This document shows positions 10,229 through 16,834 of a DNA stretch of 64,000 nt, one piece after another (position 1 is the first letter of the stretch; each line of letters begins with the position of its first letter). Origin of the DNA: Synechococcus sp. RCC307 (GTDB lineage: Bacteria > Cyanobacteriota > Cyanobacteriia > PCC-6307 > Cyanobiaceae); assembly GCA_000063525.1 (NCBI GenBank), contig CT978603.1, positions 1,979,105 to 2,043,104 on the forward strand, read 5' to 3'. A program made the position numbers and the translations under genes. Under the pieces are notes generated by a model, which was given only the letters and a program-made list of their open reading frames with translations, was not told where the DNA came from and searched no databases.

Positions 10229-10549
10229 GTGCGCTGGTTCATCAAGCGGGAAACCTTTCGGCGGCCAGCTGCTGAGCTCAAACAGGCGATCGCAGCCCAC
10301 AGGCGCTGGGTGGCGGACTGCCGCGAGCAGGGAATCGAGATCAGCAGCGGCTTTCTGGTCGATGGCGAGGGGAAGCCTGGCGGAGGGGGTTTGCTGCTGC
10401 TGCAAGCCAGCGACTACGACGCCGCGCTGGCCTTGATCCAGCAGGACCCGATGCTGCTCAGTGGTGGGGTGGAGTGGGAGCTGCAGGAATGGATCAGCAG
10501 CGTGGGGCAATTGGCCACCGACGCACCTTCACAGTCCTTCACGAGATGA
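10229..10549 (+). CDS. YciI-like protein
   Basis: A 106-residue protein starting at GTG 10229, three bases after the hisB stop. The pattern of an N-terminal basic strand, a helix with HRRWVADCREQG, the turn SSGFLVDGEGKPGGGGLLLL and the ASDYDAALALIQQDPM block fits the YciI/YCII alpha-beta fold. Members of this family are small ferredoxin-like proteins; a few are hydrolases or dehydrochlorinase-like and most are uncharacterised. The spacing suggests co-translation with hisB, but no functional link is obvious. Confidence 0.7.
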   Translation: MRWFIKRETFRRPAAELKQAIAAHRRWVADCREQGIEISSGFLVDGEGKPGGGGLLLLQASDYDAALALIQQDPMLLSGGVEWELQEWISSVGQLATDAPSQSFTR

Positions 10550-10571
10550 TGGGGGCCACCGCCGGCCCGAC

Positions 10572-12032
10572 ATGACCGCTGCCCCTGCAGCTCCGAGCTA
10601 CACCCGCAGCGACTGGTCCAGTGCCTTTCGCAATGTGGGGCAAGAGCTCAGCGATGTGATGCTGGAGCCCACGCGCGGCCAGATCCCCGATGCGCTGGCC
10701 GGGGTGCTGTATCGCAATGGCCCTGGCCGGCTGGAACGTGGCGGCCAATGGCTGCATCACCCCTTTGATGGCGACGGCATGATCACTGCGCTGCAACTGG
10801 CCGGTGGCCGGCTGCAGCTGAGCAACCGCTTTGTGCGCACCGAAGGCTGGCTAGCCGAAGAAGCCGCCGGCAAGGTGCTCTACCGCGGCGTATTTGGCAG
10901 CCAAAAGCCTGGCGGGGTGATGGCCAATGCCTTTGATCTGCGCCTGAAAAACATTGCCAACACCGGTGTGGTGCGTTTAGGCGATGACCTGTTGGCCCTC
11001 TGGGAAGCCGCCGAACCCCATGCCCTCGATCCAGACAGCCTGGAAACCCGCGGCCTGAGCCGCCTCAACGGGGTGCTCAAGCCTGGTGAAGCCTTCAGCG
11101 CCCATCCCCGCTTTGATCCCGGCCACCACGGCGATCCGCGCATGGTGACCTTCGGCGTCAAAACCGGACCACGCAGCACGGTGCGGCTGATGGAATTCGC
11201 GGCCGACGGCAGCCTCCTGCATGACCGCCGCGACAGCTTCAACGGCTTTGCCTTCTTGCATGATTTCGCCATCACGCCCAACTGGGCTGTGTTCTGGCAA
11301 AACGCCATCAACTTCAATCCGCTGCCCTTTGTTTTCGGGCAAAAGGGTGCCGCCCAGTGCCTGGAATCCAACCCCAAAGGGCAGGCCAAGTTCTGGTTGG
11401 TTCCGCGCGATAGCGGCGCCTTCGCCGGCCAAAGCGCCAAGGTCATCGACGCGCCGGAAGGTTTTGTCTTCCATCACCTCAATGCCTGGGAAGAGGGCAG
11501 CACGGTGGTGCTCGAAAGCATCGTCTACGACGATTTCCCCTCGATCGGACCGGGGGTCGACTTCCGCGAAGTCGACTTTGAGCAGATCCCCGAAGGCCTG
11601 CTGGAGCGTTGCCGCATCGACACCGAAACGGCGACAGCTCAGCGGGAGCGGCTTAGCGAGCGCTGCTGCGAATTTGCGATGGTCAATCCCAACCGGGTGG
11701 GCCTCCAGGCTCGCTACAGCTGGATGGCCGTGGCCGAGCGCGAGCAGGGCAACGATCCGCTGCAAGCGATTCGCAAGCTGGATTTGGCCAGCGGCGAGAG
11801 CCGTGTGTGGAGCGCCGCCCCTCGGGGCTTCGTCAGTGAACCGGTGATGGTGGCCAACCCTGGCGGGACAGCCGAAGACGATGGCTGGGTGCTGTGTCTG
11901 GTCTGGAATGGGGGCCGCTGCGCCAGCGATCTGGTGATCCTTGATGCCAGCACACTCAACGAGCAGGCCGTCTTCGAGCTGCCCCTAGCGATTCCCCACG
12001 GCCTGCACGGCAGCTGGGTGCAGGCCAGCTGA
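10572..12032 (+). CDS. Carotenoid oxygenase (retinal pigment epithelial membrane protein family)
   Basis: A 486-residue non-haem iron dioxygenase of the carotenoid cleavage family. Four iron-liganding His contexts of the beta-propeller are visible: SAHPRFDP, FLHDFAIT, FVFHHLNAWEEG and the C-terminal IPHGLHGSW. The N-terminal LAGVLYRNGPGR and FDGDGMITAL motifs are also standard. ATG 10572 is preferred over an upstream methionine in the preceding gene. Cyanobacterial members cleave apocarotenals or carotenoids; the exact substrate cannot be read from sequence. The stop abuts that of the convergent BCCT gene. Confidence 0.93.
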   Translation: MTAAPAAPSYTRSDWSSAFRNVGQELSDVMLEPTRGQIPDALAGVLYRNGPGRLERGGQWLHHPFDGDGMITALQLAGGRLQLSNRFVRTEGWLAEEAAGKVLYRGVFGSQKPGGVMANAFDLRLKNIANTGVVRLGDDLLALWEAAEPHALDPDSLETRGLSRLNGVLKPGEAFSAHPRFDPGHHGDPRMVTFGVKTGPRSTVRLMEFAADGSLLHDRRDSFNGFAFLHDFAITPNWAVFWQNAINFNPLPFVFGQKGAAQCLESNPKGQAKFWLVPRDSGAFAGQSAKVIDAPEGFVFHHLNAWEEGSTVVLESIVYDDFPSIGPGVDFREVDFEQIPEGLLERCRIDTETATAQRERLSERCCEFAMVNPNRVGLQARYSWMAVAEREQGNDPLQAIRKLDLASGESRVWSAAPRGFVSEPVMVANPGGTAEDDGWVLCLVWNGGRCASDLVILDASTLNEQAVFELPLAIPHGLHGSWVQAS

Positions 12033-13574
12033 TTAGCCCTGCTGCCGCTGCCATTCCCGCCAAGCCAAGCGCGGTGCTGTCCACAGCGTGGTGAGCACCA
12101 GCGGGGTGACAGGAACCGCCGCAATCACGATGAAAGCCTGCAAGGCATTGATGCTGGTGCTGTCGCCCAGGCTGGTGCCAATGCGGAGCAGAACCAAGGT
12201 GAGGCTGCCGATCATCAGCGCCCAAAACAAGCGCAACACAGCAGGCGGCTGGCTCTGACCGCTGACCACCATCGCAGCGGCATAGCTCATCGAATCAGCG
12301 CTGGTGGCCATGAACAGCACCACCAGCAACAACCCGGCGGGAATCAACAACCAGGCCAGGGGCAACTGGGTGAGGATCGCCAGCAGAGCCGCAGCAGCAC
12401 CGCTCTCCGCCAACGGTCCGGTGATGGAGCCTTGATTGGCCAGCTCCAGGTAGAGGCCGCTCCCCCCCAGCAAGGTGAACCAGATGTTGGTGACCAGCGG
12501 GCACAGAATCGCCACCGCCAGCACCAGCTCGCGCACGCTGCGCCCGCGGCTCACTTGCGCGGTGAACAGCCCCATCAGCGGGGCGTAGCCCAAAAACCAG
12601 CCCCAGTAGAAGACCGTCCAGCCATTGACCCAATTGCTGCTGCCGTCATTGGAAGCCAGCGCCATTTGGGGCAAACGGCTGAGGTACAGCCCAAACGAGC
12701 TGAAGAAGTGCTGAGCCAGCCACACCCCAGGGCCAAGCACCAACAACGCCGCACCCAAACCGAGGGTGAGCCAAACGTTGAGCTCCGAGAGCCATTTGAT
12801 GCCCTTTTGGATGCCGCTCACCGTTGAGGTGGCAAACACTGCCGTCAGCAGCAGCACCACCAGCGACTGCAAACCAGCGCTATCGGCCAAGCCCGGCAAC
12901 TGCCCCGCAGCATTGCTGAGCTGCAGGGAGAGGAAACCGAGGGGGCCGACGGTGCCGGCGATGGCCGCCACAACCGAGAGACCATCGCAGAGATGGCCGA
13001 GGGTCCCATCCACCCAACCGCGAGGCACCAGGGGGACCAGCAAACTGCGGGGCCGCAGGGGCTCACCGCGGCGCTCCAGCACCGAAAAGGTGATCGTGAC
13101 CGTGGTGGCCACCAGCGCCCAGGCCAAAAAGCCCCAGTGCAAAAAGCTCACAGCGAGGGCTGGATCAACGGCGGCTTCGGTGCTGCCGCTCACCCCTTCG
13201 AAATAGGGGGCCGGGGATTGGAAATGGAACAGCGGTTCCGCGGCCGACCAAAACACACCGCCACCAGCCAGCAGCGTGCAGATCAGCACGGCGCACCAAT
13301 CAAACAACTTGAGGCTTGGCTTGGCCTCGGCTCCGCCCAGCTTGAGCCTGCCAACTGGGCTAATGGCCAGAGCTGCTGCAATCAAGAACAGCAGCGCCAC
13401 CATCCATTGCCAGGTGCTGCCCAGCCAATTGCTGATGATGGCCTTACCGCCTTCGGTGAAGGCGGTGGCCAACTTGAGATCCACCGCGGCCATCACCAAA
13501 AACACCAGCAGGGGACCAGCGCCCACCCACAGCGGCGGCTGCTTCAGCCAGTGACGATCAGATTCGGACGGCAT
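12033..13574 (-). CDS. BCCT-family transporter (betaine/carnitine/choline type)
   Basis: A 513-residue protein with about 12 hydrophobic segments. The BCCT signature is clear: AAEPLFHF in the first helical repeat and WTVFYWGWFLGYAPLMGLFTAQ..RGRSVREL around residues 319-350. Family members import trimethylammonium compounds or related zwitterions with Na+ or H+. The substrate-box aromatics differ from the betaine type: Trp326 is kept, but Phe327 and Tyr330 stand where BetP has Trp374 and Trp377. It is the last gene of a four-gene cassette; its ATG lies 17 bases inside the upstream oxidase gene. The substrate is unknown. Confidence 0.9.
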   Translation of the reverse strand: MPSESDRHWLKQPPLWVGAGPLLVFLVMAAVDLKLATAFTEGGKAIISNWLGSTWQWMVALLFLIAAALAISPVGRLKLGGAEAKPSLKLFDWCAVLICTLLAGGGVFWSAAEPLFHFQSPAPYFEGVSGSTEAAVDPALAVSFLHWGFLAWALVATTVTITFSVLERRGEPLRPRSLLVPLVPRGWVDGTLGHLCDGLSVVAAIAGTVGPLGFLSLQLSNAAGQLPGLADSAGLQSLVVLLLTAVFATSTVSGIQKGIKWLSELNVWLTLGLGAALLVLGPGVWLAQHFFSSFGLYLSRLPQMALASNDGSSNWVNGWTVFYWGWFLGYAPLMGLFTAQVSRGRSVRELVLAVAILCPLVTNIWFTLLGGSGLYLELANQGSITGPLAESGAAAALLAILTQLPLAWLLIPAGLLLVVLFMATSADSMSYAAAMVVSGQSQPPAVLRLFWALMIGSLTLVLLRIGTSLGDSTSINALQAFIVIAAVPVTPLVLTTLWTAPRLAWREWQRQQG

Positions 13575-14745
13575 CACGCTCTCGGCTCCAGCAGGACAGA
13601 TCAACGGTGGGGGCCAAGCCCATGGCCAGACGGGCGAGGGAGGTGCCAATCAGAGGCGCGAACTTGAACGCCTGACCGGATCCGCCACTGAACAAACTCA
13701 GCCGCGGCGCCAGACGATCAAGGACGAAATTCACATCGGAAGCCATCGAATAGGGGCTGATCACCGTTTCAACGCGCTCCTGCACACCGCTGAGGTTGTT
13801 GAACAGGAAGTCATCGAGCAGCTGCACCAACCGCGGCGGAGGGTCCTTGCGCATGGCATTGGGTTCGGCCACCCGCAGCTCTTCGGGAGCCCAATCGATG
13901 CCGGCCTTGATCTTGGGGCGGCCGTCCTCGGTGCGGCTCAACGCCGGGAAGCCGTAATACAGGCCTCCGTCATCGCCGTGGGCCTGCTGGAAGCAAAACC
14001 ACTGGGGATAGCGATCCGCCAGGGCAGGGTCAACGGTGTAGTGGGCCCAAAGCATGGGCCACACCTCCAGCTTGGGGGCCAAGCCATGGGGAGCGAGCAG
14101 AAGCTGGCTCCAAATACCGCAGGCCACCACCACCTGGTCAGCCTCGATCTGCTCACCGCTCTGCAGGCTGACCCGCCCTGAGCTGGGATCGACGGCCTGA
14201 ACAGGGCAATGCTCGATCAGCTGGTGTCCTGCGGCGCGCGCTGTCCGCGTCCAGTGGGCAATCACCCGATCACTGCGAACAGCCCCGGCCGTGGGCTCAA
14301 ACAAACCGCTGAAATCAGCCCTGGGCTTGAGCGGGAACCGCTCAGCAATCTGCTGAGCGGTCAGGGCTTCGTAGGGAATGCCCTGGTCATCCATCACCCG
14401 ACGTGCACCCGGGATCGAACCTTCGATCGTCTCCTCATCCCAGCTTTCGCCGTAGAAGAGCAAGCCGTGGGTCTGGCGAAGGATTTCGCCTGAGCGCTGC
14501 TCCTCCTCGCGCCAGAGGCGGTTGGCCTCTTGGGCGAGCCGGCAAAGCACCGGATCGGAATACATCTCCCTGAACATGCGGGATTCGCCGAAACTGCTGG
14601 CTCCGGCGTGGGCCAGGGTTTTGGCCTCTAGCAACACAACATCATTGACCCCCTGCTGGGCCAGGGACGAGGCACAGCTGAGTCCGGCCATGCCACCGCC
14701 AATGATCACCACCGCAGCGCGGCTGGGAAGGGATTGGGTGCTCAT
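13558..14745 (-). CDS. Monomeric sarcosine oxidase / N-methyl amino acid oxidase-like flavoprotein
   Basis: A 395-residue FAD enzyme of the DAO superfamily. The dinucleotide motif VIIGGGMAGL (residues 14-22) and the C-terminal GSGQAFKFAPLIG block, with the Lys corresponding to the oxygen-activating Lys of monomeric sarcosine oxidase, are present. Family members oxidise N-methyl or cyclic secondary amino acids, releasing formaldehyde or an imine and H2O2. The position where MSOX attaches FAD covalently through Cys appears to be Ser330 here. The start overlaps the dehydrogenase stop (ATGA), and the end overlaps the transporter start by 17 bases. Confidence 0.85.
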   Translation of the reverse strand: MSTQSLPSRAAVVIIGGGMAGLSCASSLAQQGVNDVVLLEAKTLAHAGASSFGESRMFREMYSDPVLCRLAQEANRLWREEEQRSGEILRQTHGLLFYGESWDEETIEGSIPGARRVMDDQGIPYEALTAQQIAERFPLKPRADFSGLFEPTAGAVRSDRVIAHWTRTARAAGHQLIEHCPVQAVDPSSGRVSLQSGEQIEADQVVVACGIWSQLLLAPHGLAPKLEVWPMLWAHYTVDPALADRYPQWFCFQQAHGDDGGLYYGFPALSRTEDGRPKIKAGIDWAPEELRVAEPNAMRKDPPPRLVQLLDDFLFNNLSGVQERVETVISPYSMASDVNFVLDRLAPRLSLFSGGSGQAFKFAPLIGTSLARLAMGLAPTVDLSCWSRERDAVRI

Positions 14746-15797
14746 GCGGGCAACACAAAACTGAGGCCAATGGGGTCCTGGCTACTGCCGGCAGCCACAT
14801 GCATCAACGCTTCACCAACACTGAGGCCCCGATCCCGTTGGGCCAGGAAATCGCTGGCGCGATCGCGAACAGCCTGGCGAACAAAGGCATACACCTGCTC
14901 TGGACTGGCCTGTTTCCAAGCCTCCGGGGCAAAGCGCTCAATGGAGTCAGCGATCACCGCTCCGGCATTGACCAAGGGATCCGGCAACACCCGCACTCCC
15001 CGCAGCCGCATCTGCTCGGCCAAGTCCTGATCGGCAAAGGGTGCATTGGCCGCTGGGACCACCGACTTCACCTGCAAGGCAGCACTGATGTCAGCGGTTA
15101 TCAGACCTGAAATCGAGCAAGGGAGCAGCAAGTCGAGCTCCTGGGTCCACCAGGCCGAGCCTGGATCCAAGGGGGTCGCCCCACTGATCTGGGCCCGAGC
15201 CGAGTCCATATCCACCGTGAAGACCTGCCAACCGCTGGCAATGAGGGCCTTTGCCACCGGTCCGCCAACGGCGCCGCAGCCATGCACCAACGCCCGACCA
15301 GCGGGCGCCTGATCCAAGCTGTCCTGAAGCACCGCTTCCACGGCACCAATCGTGCCGAACGCGGTGGCACTACTGGCATCGACGGGGCTGCCAACAGCGG
15401 CTAACACATGAGGCGTCAGAGCGGTCAGCCGCTCCATGTCCTCAAGGCTGGTATTGAGATCGCAGCCGGTGATCATCGCCCCACCGAGCGACTCCAGCAG
15501 CTCAGCGGTCACATTGATCAGCTCGTCTTTCACCGCTGCCGGATTGGCAGCGCGAGCCACCACTTTGCCGCCGGCAAAGCCTGTGCCGTATAAGGAATGC
15601 TTGTTGGTCATCAAGCTGGCCAAGCGATGGCCATCGGCTTTGCAGGTGGCGTCGCTGTCGTAGGAGAGCAGCCTCAGGCCGCCATTGGCCGGACGCTCAG
15701 CATCGGTGTTCTCGGCCACCACAAAAACCGAGAGGTGATCAGAGATGTGCTCCGCCAGCACGCGCACCTGTGGACTGCTGGAATCGGCACTCCTCAT
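14742..15797 (-). CDS. Glu/Leu/Phe/Val-family amino acid dehydrogenase
   Basis: A 351-residue oxidoreductase of the leucine/phenylalanine dehydrogenase branch, which interconverts an L-amino acid and its 2-oxo acid with NAD+. The two catalytic lysines appear in MTNKHS (Lys66) and AGGKVV (Lys78), with Asp113 in GCDLNT. The Rossmann motif GCGAVGG is at 173-179, followed by VDMD, which favours NAD over NADP. DPLVNAGAVI is the usual C-terminal landmark. ATG 15797 overlaps the upstream methyltransferase stop (ATGA). The same family includes tryptophan dehydrogenase ScyB of scytonemin producers; the substrate here is not determined. Confidence 0.88.
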   Translation of the reverse strand: MRSADSSSPQVRVLAEHISDHLSVFVVAENTDAERPANGGLRLLSYDSDATCKADGHRLASLMTNKHSLYGTGFAGGKVVARAANPAAVKDELINVTAELLESLGGAMITGCDLNTSLEDMERLTALTPHVLAAVGSPVDASSATAFGTIGAVEAVLQDSLDQAPAGRALVHGCGAVGGPVAKALIASGWQVFTVDMDSARAQISGATPLDPGSAWWTQELDLLLPCSISGLITADISAALQVKSVVPAANAPFADQDLAEQMRLRGVRVLPDPLVNAGAVIADSIERFAPEAWKQASPEQVYAFVRQAVRDRASDFLAQRDRGLSVGEALMHVAAGSSQDPIGLSFVLPA

Positions 15798-16834
15798 GGG
15801 GCCACCTTTTCCATCATTTGATGGTGCTCGACGTAATCGAGGCTCCATTCATCAGGAGCCGCAGCAATGCGTTTCTCCAGGCGCCCGTAGAGCTCATCAG
15901 CGGCGGCATCGCCAGCGGTTGACGCAAAGCTGTGGCGACTCCAGCTGCGGATGGTGGCCATCAAGCCAGAGGCGAAGGAGGCCGTATCACCGGTCTCCTT
16001 CCAGCGCCGGCGGTAGGGGCACTCCACATACACCGTGCGCTGATCAATGAGGCGCAGACCGTTGCGATAAGCCGCTGAAGTGCTGTCCTTCAGCGGAGCC
16101 ATGAACTCATCGGGTGACTTGTAGAAGTTCATGACCGTGGCCGCGCGGTAGTGATCGGCGCTGATGCGACCTTCATCGGCCATCTCGCGCCAGATCTGAT
16201 GCAACTGGTCGTGCACATTGCGGGTGCGGCCGCCGTTGTGACCCAAGTAGAGACCAGCCTCATCGCGGGAAAGGTTCACCGTCAGCAAACGGCCACCCAC
16301 CTGCAGTTCCTTGGACCGCAGCTCCAGCAGGGCATTCCAGTCGCGCATGGCCTGCGCGGTGAAGCGGCTCAAGGCCTCAGCGTCACCGGAGGCCTGAACG
16401 TGGGTGTGTGCATCAAGGGCACCCGCCGACTGACTCAGCCAGTGCATAGCGGTGGCCGTAAAGCCAAAGCTGACCGAACCGGGCGCCATCAACGGCTCAT
16501 AGAAGCTGCGGCAGCTCACCAGCACCGTTGGGCTGGGAGGGCGCGACAACTGGAGCGCCACATTGGCGGCCAGAGCAAGGTTGTCGTTGCTGGGCAGGTC
16601 GTTGCCCACCAGCGTGTAGTGGGCCTGGGGCTGGCGCTCGTGGAGGCGGTCCAACACGGAGTTCCACAGCCCAACGGCTGTGCCCCCATCGGCCGCGCCG
16701 TAATCAATCAAGGTGTAAGCGCTCTGCTGTGGCAGAGCATCAACGCAAGCTAAGGCCCAGTCCGAAGCGGCTTCGATGCAGCGCAATGCGCCTTCGGTCT
16801 GCGCGCTGTAACCCGTCGTCATGGCGATGGCCAT
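15794..16834 (-). CDS. SABATH-family SAM-dependent methyltransferase (carboxyl methyltransferase type)
   Basis: The 346-residue product resembles the plant SABATH enzymes that methylate salicylate, jasmonate, indole-acetate or xanthine nitrogens. Key blocks are GYSAQTEGALRCIE, the SAM motif DYGAADGGTAVGLW, NDLPSNDN, and SFYEPLMAPGSVSFGFTAT with MHWLS. All of these correspond to SABATH motifs. Starts are ambiguous: ATG 16834, ATG 16822 or TTG 16858. It is the first gene of the overlapping cassette and lies after an inverted repeat that straddles the rdgB stop codon. SABATH genes are uncommon in bacteria; whether the target is a carboxylate or a nitrogen is unknown. Confidence 0.85.
   Translation of the reverse strand: MAIAMTTGYSAQTEGALRCIEAASDWALACVDALPQQSAYTLIDYGAADGGTAVGLWNSVLDRLHERQPQAHYTLVGNDLPSNDNLALAANVALQLSRPPSPTVLVSCRSFYEPLMAPGSVSFGFTATAMHWLSQSAGALDAHTHVQASGDAEALSRFTAQAMRDWNALLELRSKELQVGGRLLTVNLSRDEAGLYLGHNGGRTRNVHDQLHQIWREMADEGRISADHYRAATVMNFYKSPDEFMAPLKDSTSAAYRNGLRLIDQRTVYVECPYRRRWKETGDTASFASGLMATIRSWSRHSFASTAGDAAADELYGRLEKRIAAAPDEWSLDYVEHHQMMEKVAP

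Follow-up and report, generated by a model that had tools for sequence, protein, structure and literature searches.

Nikkomycin biosynthesis includes a picolinate branch that is composed of the lysine 2-aminotransferase NikC, the piperideine-2-carboxylate (P2C) oxidase NikD and a picolinate-coenzyme A (CoA) ligase. NikD-type enzymes convert the lysine-derived P2C to picolinate (PMC4021061; PMC11446937), and homologues of NikC and NikD are also treated in the latter paper (PMC11446937). The coffee trigonelline synthases CTgS1 and CTgS2 are SABATH enzymes that N-methylate nicotinate, an isomer of picolinate (PMC8877179). N-methylated picolinate is homarine, a betaine and an abundant nitrogen-containing metabolite of the sea, which after a published correction was measured in both cultured Synechococcus tested, with up to 18 mM in WH8102 and about 0.2 mM in WH7803 (PMC8269262, PMC10134881). 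A paper from 2021 names the lack of genetic information on the synthesis of homarine as a limitation (PMC8269247), and our literature search, which excluded preprints and subscription journals, found no paper naming homarine synthesis genes. Here we describe a four-gene cassette of Synechococcus sp. RCC307, located in a window of 64,000 nucleotides (contig CT978603.1, forward-strand positions 1,979,105 to 2,043,104; coordinates below are window positions), and we consider it quite probable that this cassette makes homarine from lysine.

The four genes are contiguous on the minus strand, in the order SABATH methyltransferase, dehydrogenase, flavoenzyme and BCCT transporter, with overlaps of 4, 4 and 17 bases:

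15794-16834, minus strand: SABATH-family S-adenosylmethionine (SAM)-dependent methyltransferase, 346 amino acids, ATG at 16834 (PF03492)
14742-15797, minus strand: ELFV-type amino acid dehydrogenase, 351 amino acids (PF00208/PF02812)
13558-14745, minus strand: NikD-like flavoenzyme of the monomeric sarcosine oxidase family, 395 amino acids (DAO)
12033-13574, minus strand: BCCT-family transporter, 513 amino acids (PF02028)

The dehydrogenase gene overlaps the SABATH gene, and the flavoenzyme gene the dehydrogenase gene, in the 4-base sequence ATGA, and the 17-base overlap joins the BCCT and flavoenzyme genes. This arrangement and the four family assignments had been given in a first-pass annotation of the sequence, and both were borne out. 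All four proteins pass their Pfam cut-offs, with 72.3 bits against a cut-off of 29.8 for the methyltransferase (Methyltransf_7, PF03492), 53.8 bits for ELFV_dehydrog and 31.2 bits for ELFV_N in the dehydrogenase, 160 bits for DAO in the flavoenzyme, and 432.9 bits against 27 for the BCCT protein (PF02028), which entered the profile and PDB searches without its ATG codon, in the frame that begins at 13571.

In the proposed route, the dehydrogenase would remove the α-amino group from L-lysine, and the resulting 2-oxo-6-aminohexanoate would cyclise spontaneously to P2C. The NikD-like flavoenzyme would convert P2C to picolinate in two 2-electron oxidations with O2 as acceptor, and the SABATH enzyme would use SAM to methylate picolinate at its ring nitrogen, yielding homarine. 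The BCCT protein may move the finished betaine, probably recovering homarine that has leaked or is present in seawater. All substrates, the preference for N- over O-methylation, and the cargo and direction of the transporter are what we infer for this cassette. The route would thus start with a new ELFV lysine 2-dehydrogenase, continue with a NikD-like oxidase and end with a bacterial SABATH enzyme that N-methylates a pyridine; the enzyme families are known, but their combination is new, as two of the activities would be if confirmed. It seems reasonably probable that these are the first homarine biosynthesis genes, forming a three-enzyme lysine route shared by abundant marine phototrophs and marine Microbulbifer.

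The best PDB sequence match of the flavoenzyme is NikD (2oln, E=2e-31), ahead of the sarcosine oxidases. In the alignment, which reproduces the NikD numbering, residues R59, E108, Y264, D284 and K361 correspond to Arg53, Glu101, Tyr258, Asp276 and Lys358 of NikD, which we take to be the residues lining its active site, and the enzyme thereby carries the marks of a NikD-type P2C oxidase. Glu101 and Asp276 are kept in every cassette flavoenzyme and also in the relatives from Microbulbifer, Streptomyces and Microcoleaceae, whereas in monomeric sarcosine oxidase (MSOX), in SOX and in the N-methyltryptophan oxidase SolA of Escherichia coli (MTOX) the Glu101 stretch is missing as a gap and a histidine occupies the Asp276 position. 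In a phylogenetic tree, NikD and the cassette enzymes fall together, away from SOX, MSOX and MTOX, although the NikD branch is very long and the grouping could be affected by long-branch attraction. We propose from these residues that the flavoenzyme oxidises P2C to picolinate.

The first-pass annotation had assumed an N-demethylating flavoenzyme, as part of a pathway in which the BCCT protein imports an indole-type N-methyl amino acid that is N-demethylated, deaminated and finally methylated by the SABATH enzyme. The family names fit such a pathway, and the top NCBIfam matches, although below threshold, are indeed N-methyltryptophan oxidase for the flavoenzyme and ScyB for the dehydrogenase. 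Every relevant equivalog cut-off is missed, however, as the flavoenzyme scores 181 against 257 for the N-methyltryptophan oxidase model and 136 against 480 for the SoxA model (soxA_mon). Also the marks of MSOX are absent, with Asp284 at the position of His269 and Ser330 at that of Cys315. With both cut-offs missed and the active-site histidine replaced by aspartate, the sarcosine or N-methyltryptophan N-demethylase was rejected as a candidate, and the NikD-type residues stand in place of the histidine of MSOX and MTOX.

The dehydrogenase is an ELFV dehydrogenase by profile, catalytic residues and fold. Its closest PDB matches, at about 25% identity, are leucine, phenylalanine and tryptophan dehydrogenases, which are also the best Foldseek matches of the model (predicted local distance difference test score, pLDDT, 92.5), and Lys66, Lys78 and Asp113 of the catalytic site are conserved. 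In the substrate pocket, Leu40 and Val294 of leucine dehydrogenase, which presumably correspond to Lys89 and Ser380 of glutamate dehydrogenase, are replaced by Asn38 and Asp284, and all 17 sequences compared, with identities as low as 34-38% and including those of Microbulbifer and Streptomyces, have these two residues. The residue ranges given for 3vpx served as a check on how Leu40, Val291 and Val294 are numbered. MAFFT alignment with leucine dehydrogenase introduces a two-residue gap just ahead of Ala283-Asp284, but we prefer the gapless register, because the helix 279-289, which contains Asp284, is continuous in the model. The acid at this position suggests a cationic side chain in the substrate, as in lysine or ornithine, and we propose that the enzyme is a lysine 2-dehydrogenase yielding P2C. 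Leucine dehydrogenase activity was rejected because the hydrophobic Leu40/Val294 pocket is replaced by the invariant Asn38/Asp284, and so was tryptophan deamination, with the ScyB model (NF035922, NCBIfam) reaching 88.1 bits against a cut-off of 600. The indole-type substrate that had been suggested initially does not agree with this polar and acidic, rather than hydrophobic or aromatic, pocket.

As an acidic pocket would suit any cationic side chain, ornithine or another basic amino acid could be converted via pyrroline-2-carboxylate to pyrrole-2-carboxylate, which would then be methylated. We regard this as very unlikely, since the known substrate of NikD is the six-membered P2C (PMC4021061) and the papers found do not describe such a pyrrole betaine or ester from these strains. 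This ornithine-derived product and methyl picolinate, which is discussed below, are nevertheless the main rivals to homarine.

For the SABATH protein (METHYLTRANSFERASE), an AlphaFold2 model with a pLDDT of 79.5 was obtained, and the 29 chains that Foldseek ranks highest for it, SAMT (1m6e) being the last of them, all come from SABATH structures. They comprise both O- and N-methylating enzymes, namely the mycobacterial fatty acid O-methyltransferase 5f2k, the tea N9-methyltransferase 6lyh, caffeine-type N-methyltransferases and SAMT. The glutamine that lies near the substrate in plant carboxyl methyltransferases, as seen in 8wwq and presumably represented by the carboxylate-adjacent Gln25 of SAMT, is replaced here by Ala16, which is invariant or near-invariant and lends weak support to N-methylation. 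We propose that the enzyme is a picolinate N-methyltransferase, and thus a homarine synthase, a substrate that is suggested by the neighbouring genes and by the precedent of the coffee trigonelline synthases. The papers found on SABATH proteins and cyanobacteria contained nothing on this gene. Remote second SABATH proteins of about 24% identity are encoded in several large picocyanobacterial genomes (G102, G193, G221, G276 and G294), one of them with an internal TAG.

The BCCT protein has the trimethylamine transporter 8zw8 as best PDB match, followed by DddT and BetP, and it falls below the cut-off of the glycine betaine BCCT equivalog (299.6 against 650, NCBIfam). Its aromatic box is altered to LHWGFLAWALVA and FYWGWFLGYAPL, which are the same in 33 of 34 and in 34 of 34 orthologues, respectively. 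Compared with 8zw8, the ligand box reads FYWGWFLGY instead of FYWAWWIAW and HWGFLAWALV instead of HWGLHAWGIY, and because this conserved box differs, the protein probably binds something other than glycine betaine. We propose a role as betaine carrier, with homarine as the putative cargo. The paper on ProX and glycine betaine does not mention the BCCT protein.

When 400 genomes of the family were searched with each of the three enzymes, all three matched the same 70 genomes and were almost never found apart, which argues that the cassette is not a product of chance. The exceptions were one genome with only a dehydrogenase relative (G030) and two with only a SABATH relative of about 24% identity (G102 and G193). 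The lone dehydrogenase (L036:6549-7673, about 60% identity) retains both pocket residues, Asn and Asp, and has neither oxidase nor SABATH gene; a gene with a spermidine synthase domain lies nearby. The order SABATH-dehydrogenase-oxidase-BCCT is found in 36 gene-carrying Synechococcus-type loci of the first set, mostly flanked by pgm/ham1 on one side and an RPE65/hisB pair on the other, and it is kept, across several genera, in all examined marine Synechococcus-type loci whose length covers the four genes. A second collection of named genomes shows the same order, including the full cassette in Synechococcus WH7803 (CT971583, L088). The Prochlorococcus loci, among them MIT 9201, MIT 9401, HNLC1, HNLC2, single-cell genomes and two complete genomes, possess the enzyme trio in the same order without BCCT at the locus. 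The cassette is thus conserved in picocyanobacteria, as had been expected, and the neighbourhood of its genes in related genomes, which the first-pass annotation had set as the test that could refute it, was confirmed.

In a class-wide sample of 340 genomes the oxidase is restricted to the picocyanobacterial family, and a separate scan of contigs retrieved relatives from Microbulbifer, Streptomyces and one metagenome-assembled genome of Microcoleaceae with a broken copy. Marine Microbulbifer (3 of 48 genomes) carry SABATH, dehydrogenase and oxidase in the same order, again with BCCT absent at the trio loci; an MFS transporter gene lies upstream of the trio in the two of these loci with upstream sequence to inspect. 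In Streptomyces mashuensis (L116) and S. griseocarneus (L118), the dehydrogenase and oxidase genes are followed by a gene for an AMP-binding (acyl-CoA/AMP) ligase, and there is no SABATH gene. This parallels nikkomycin biosynthesis, where activation with CoA is the next step for picolinate (PMC4021061), and the cluster possibly makes a picolinyl compound. Both loci, which appear to be natural-product clusters, also contain BioF-like acyltransferase and glutamine-synthetase-like genes, and L118 an epimerase/SDR gene nearby.

The enzyme trio is the core unit of the cassette. With the trio in Microbulbifer and the pair plus AMP ligase in Streptomyces, the dehydrogenase and oxidase form a movable unit that yields a carboxylic acid, which can be either methylated or activated. 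Trio loci without BCCT also indicate that uptake, which had been placed at the centre of the pathway, does not belong to its core. Together with the polar pocket and the missed cut-offs described above, the trio without BCCT and the dehydrogenase-oxidase pair without SABATH make the indole-type route highly improbable. The idea of a single pathway tied to an N-methylated zwitterion is retained from the first-pass annotation, whereas its direction and substrate are not.

Some features of individual loci were observed in addition. The BCCT stop codon in the window directly adjoins that of a convergent gene for an RPE65-family carotenoid oxygenase (10461-12032, plus strand), and this gene adjoins the cassette on the opposite strand in most Synechococcus loci. 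The SABATH gene of L066 (G241:C1:260000-272500) lacks 4 bases that L054 has and is thereby out of frame, with dehydrogenase, oxidase and BCCT intact; provided that this sequence is correct, that strain is predicted to be a homarine non-producer. The SABATH gene of L065 (G238) and the oxidase gene of L045 (G112) are each split over two frames, by natural loss or sequencing error. The NikD-like oxidase of the Microcoleaceae genome (L117:2882-4096) has an in-frame stop and lies amid branched-chain amino acid ABC transporter genes.

Cassette and measured homarine coincide in WH7803, which is a correlation in one strain, and several observations weigh against homarine as the product. WH7803 makes little homarine although the cassette is present, and the strong producer WH8102 falls outside the analysis, which covered 34 genomes of its presumed genus. 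Diatoms make homarine too. The flavoenzyme is not a plain NikD orthologue, because Trp355 of NikD is replaced by Gln358 in Synechococcus and likewise by Gln in Microbulbifer, and by His in Streptomyces, and because the covalent-flavin Cys of MSOX is replaced by Ser330 in Synechococcus and by Ser in Streptomyces, being Cys in Microbulbifer; overall, it is also about equally close to the sarcosine oxidase 7exs (34%) and to NikD (31%). Finally, the best PDB match of the SABATH protein is a fatty acid O-methyltransferase, and SABATH proteins, including most characterised ones, are more often carboxyl O-methyltransferases. The lysine-to-picolinate module could hence end in a carboxyl methylation that gives methyl picolinate or another picolinate derivative. 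A neutral ester, however, would need no BCCT carrier, what is known from these strains is homarine rather than the ester, and the Gln that is replaced by Ala16 speaks, weakly, in the same direction, and we therefore think that this outcome is unlikely.

The gene set had been thought to be without a described counterpart, but it is partly listed as Pro-eCAG_009, "leuDH-soxA-CK_00001744", which comprises the same genes in Prochlorococcus and is found in most Synechococcus genomes (PMC10119275, 2023), in agreement with our searches. By elimination, CK_00001744 is probably the SABATH gene. As published, the cluster would free ammonium from leucine or other branched-chain amino acids in high-nutrient, low-chlorophyll (HNLC) waters by leucine dehydrogenase and sarcosine oxidase, with no role for a methyltransferase, BCCT or homarine. 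This agrees with the automatic annotation as leuDH and soxA and with the HNLC distribution (PMC10119275), but the specificity positions lack the hydrophobic residues of leucine dehydrogenase, the soxA_mon cut-off is missed, and the presence of a methyltransferase as the invariant third gene finds no explanation in it, so that we give this reading very little credence. The Prochlorococcus gene trio and a Synechococcus glycine betaine cluster are both reported from HNLC waters, and the latter is nearly absent from low-nitrogen areas (PMC10119275). Because the glycine betaine cluster shares the one distribution and nearly misses the other, a nitrogen-rich osmolyte fits the HNLC distribution better than nitrogen scavenging. 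If homarine is the product, the "nitrogen-scavenging" cluster of HNLC Prochlorococcus would have to be re-read as synthesis of a nitrogen-costing osmolyte, and the published open question on homarine genes would become directly testable. The marker gene set would then let homarine producers be mapped in metagenomes and the flux be tested by deletion.

Like the nikkomycin branch, the cassette is proposed to combine deamination at C2 of lysine, spontaneous closure to P2C and aromatisation to picolinate by an enzyme of the MSOX family. It differs in having an NAD-type ELFV dehydrogenase where nikkomycin has a pyridoxal phosphate-dependent aminotransferase, and a SABATH methyltransferase instead of the CoA ligase, plus a BCCT carrier. 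Its oxidase resembles NikD in the residues of Glu101, Tyr258, Asp276, Arg53 and Lys358 type but lacks Trp355, and the covalent-flavin Cys is not kept. With ScyB and leucine dehydrogenase, the cassette dehydrogenase shares the fold and the catalytic Lys/Lys/Asp, and it departs from them by having Asn38 and Asp284 at the positions of Leu40 and Val294 and by missing the ScyB cut-off. With the coffee enzymes CTgS1 and CTgS2, the cassette methyltransferase shares the SABATH fold and the proposed conversion of a pyridine carboxylate into a betaine by N-methylation, whereas it is bacterial, of low identity, and would act on picolinate instead of nicotinate; we know of no bacterial SABATH member with a trigonelline-synthase-like activity.

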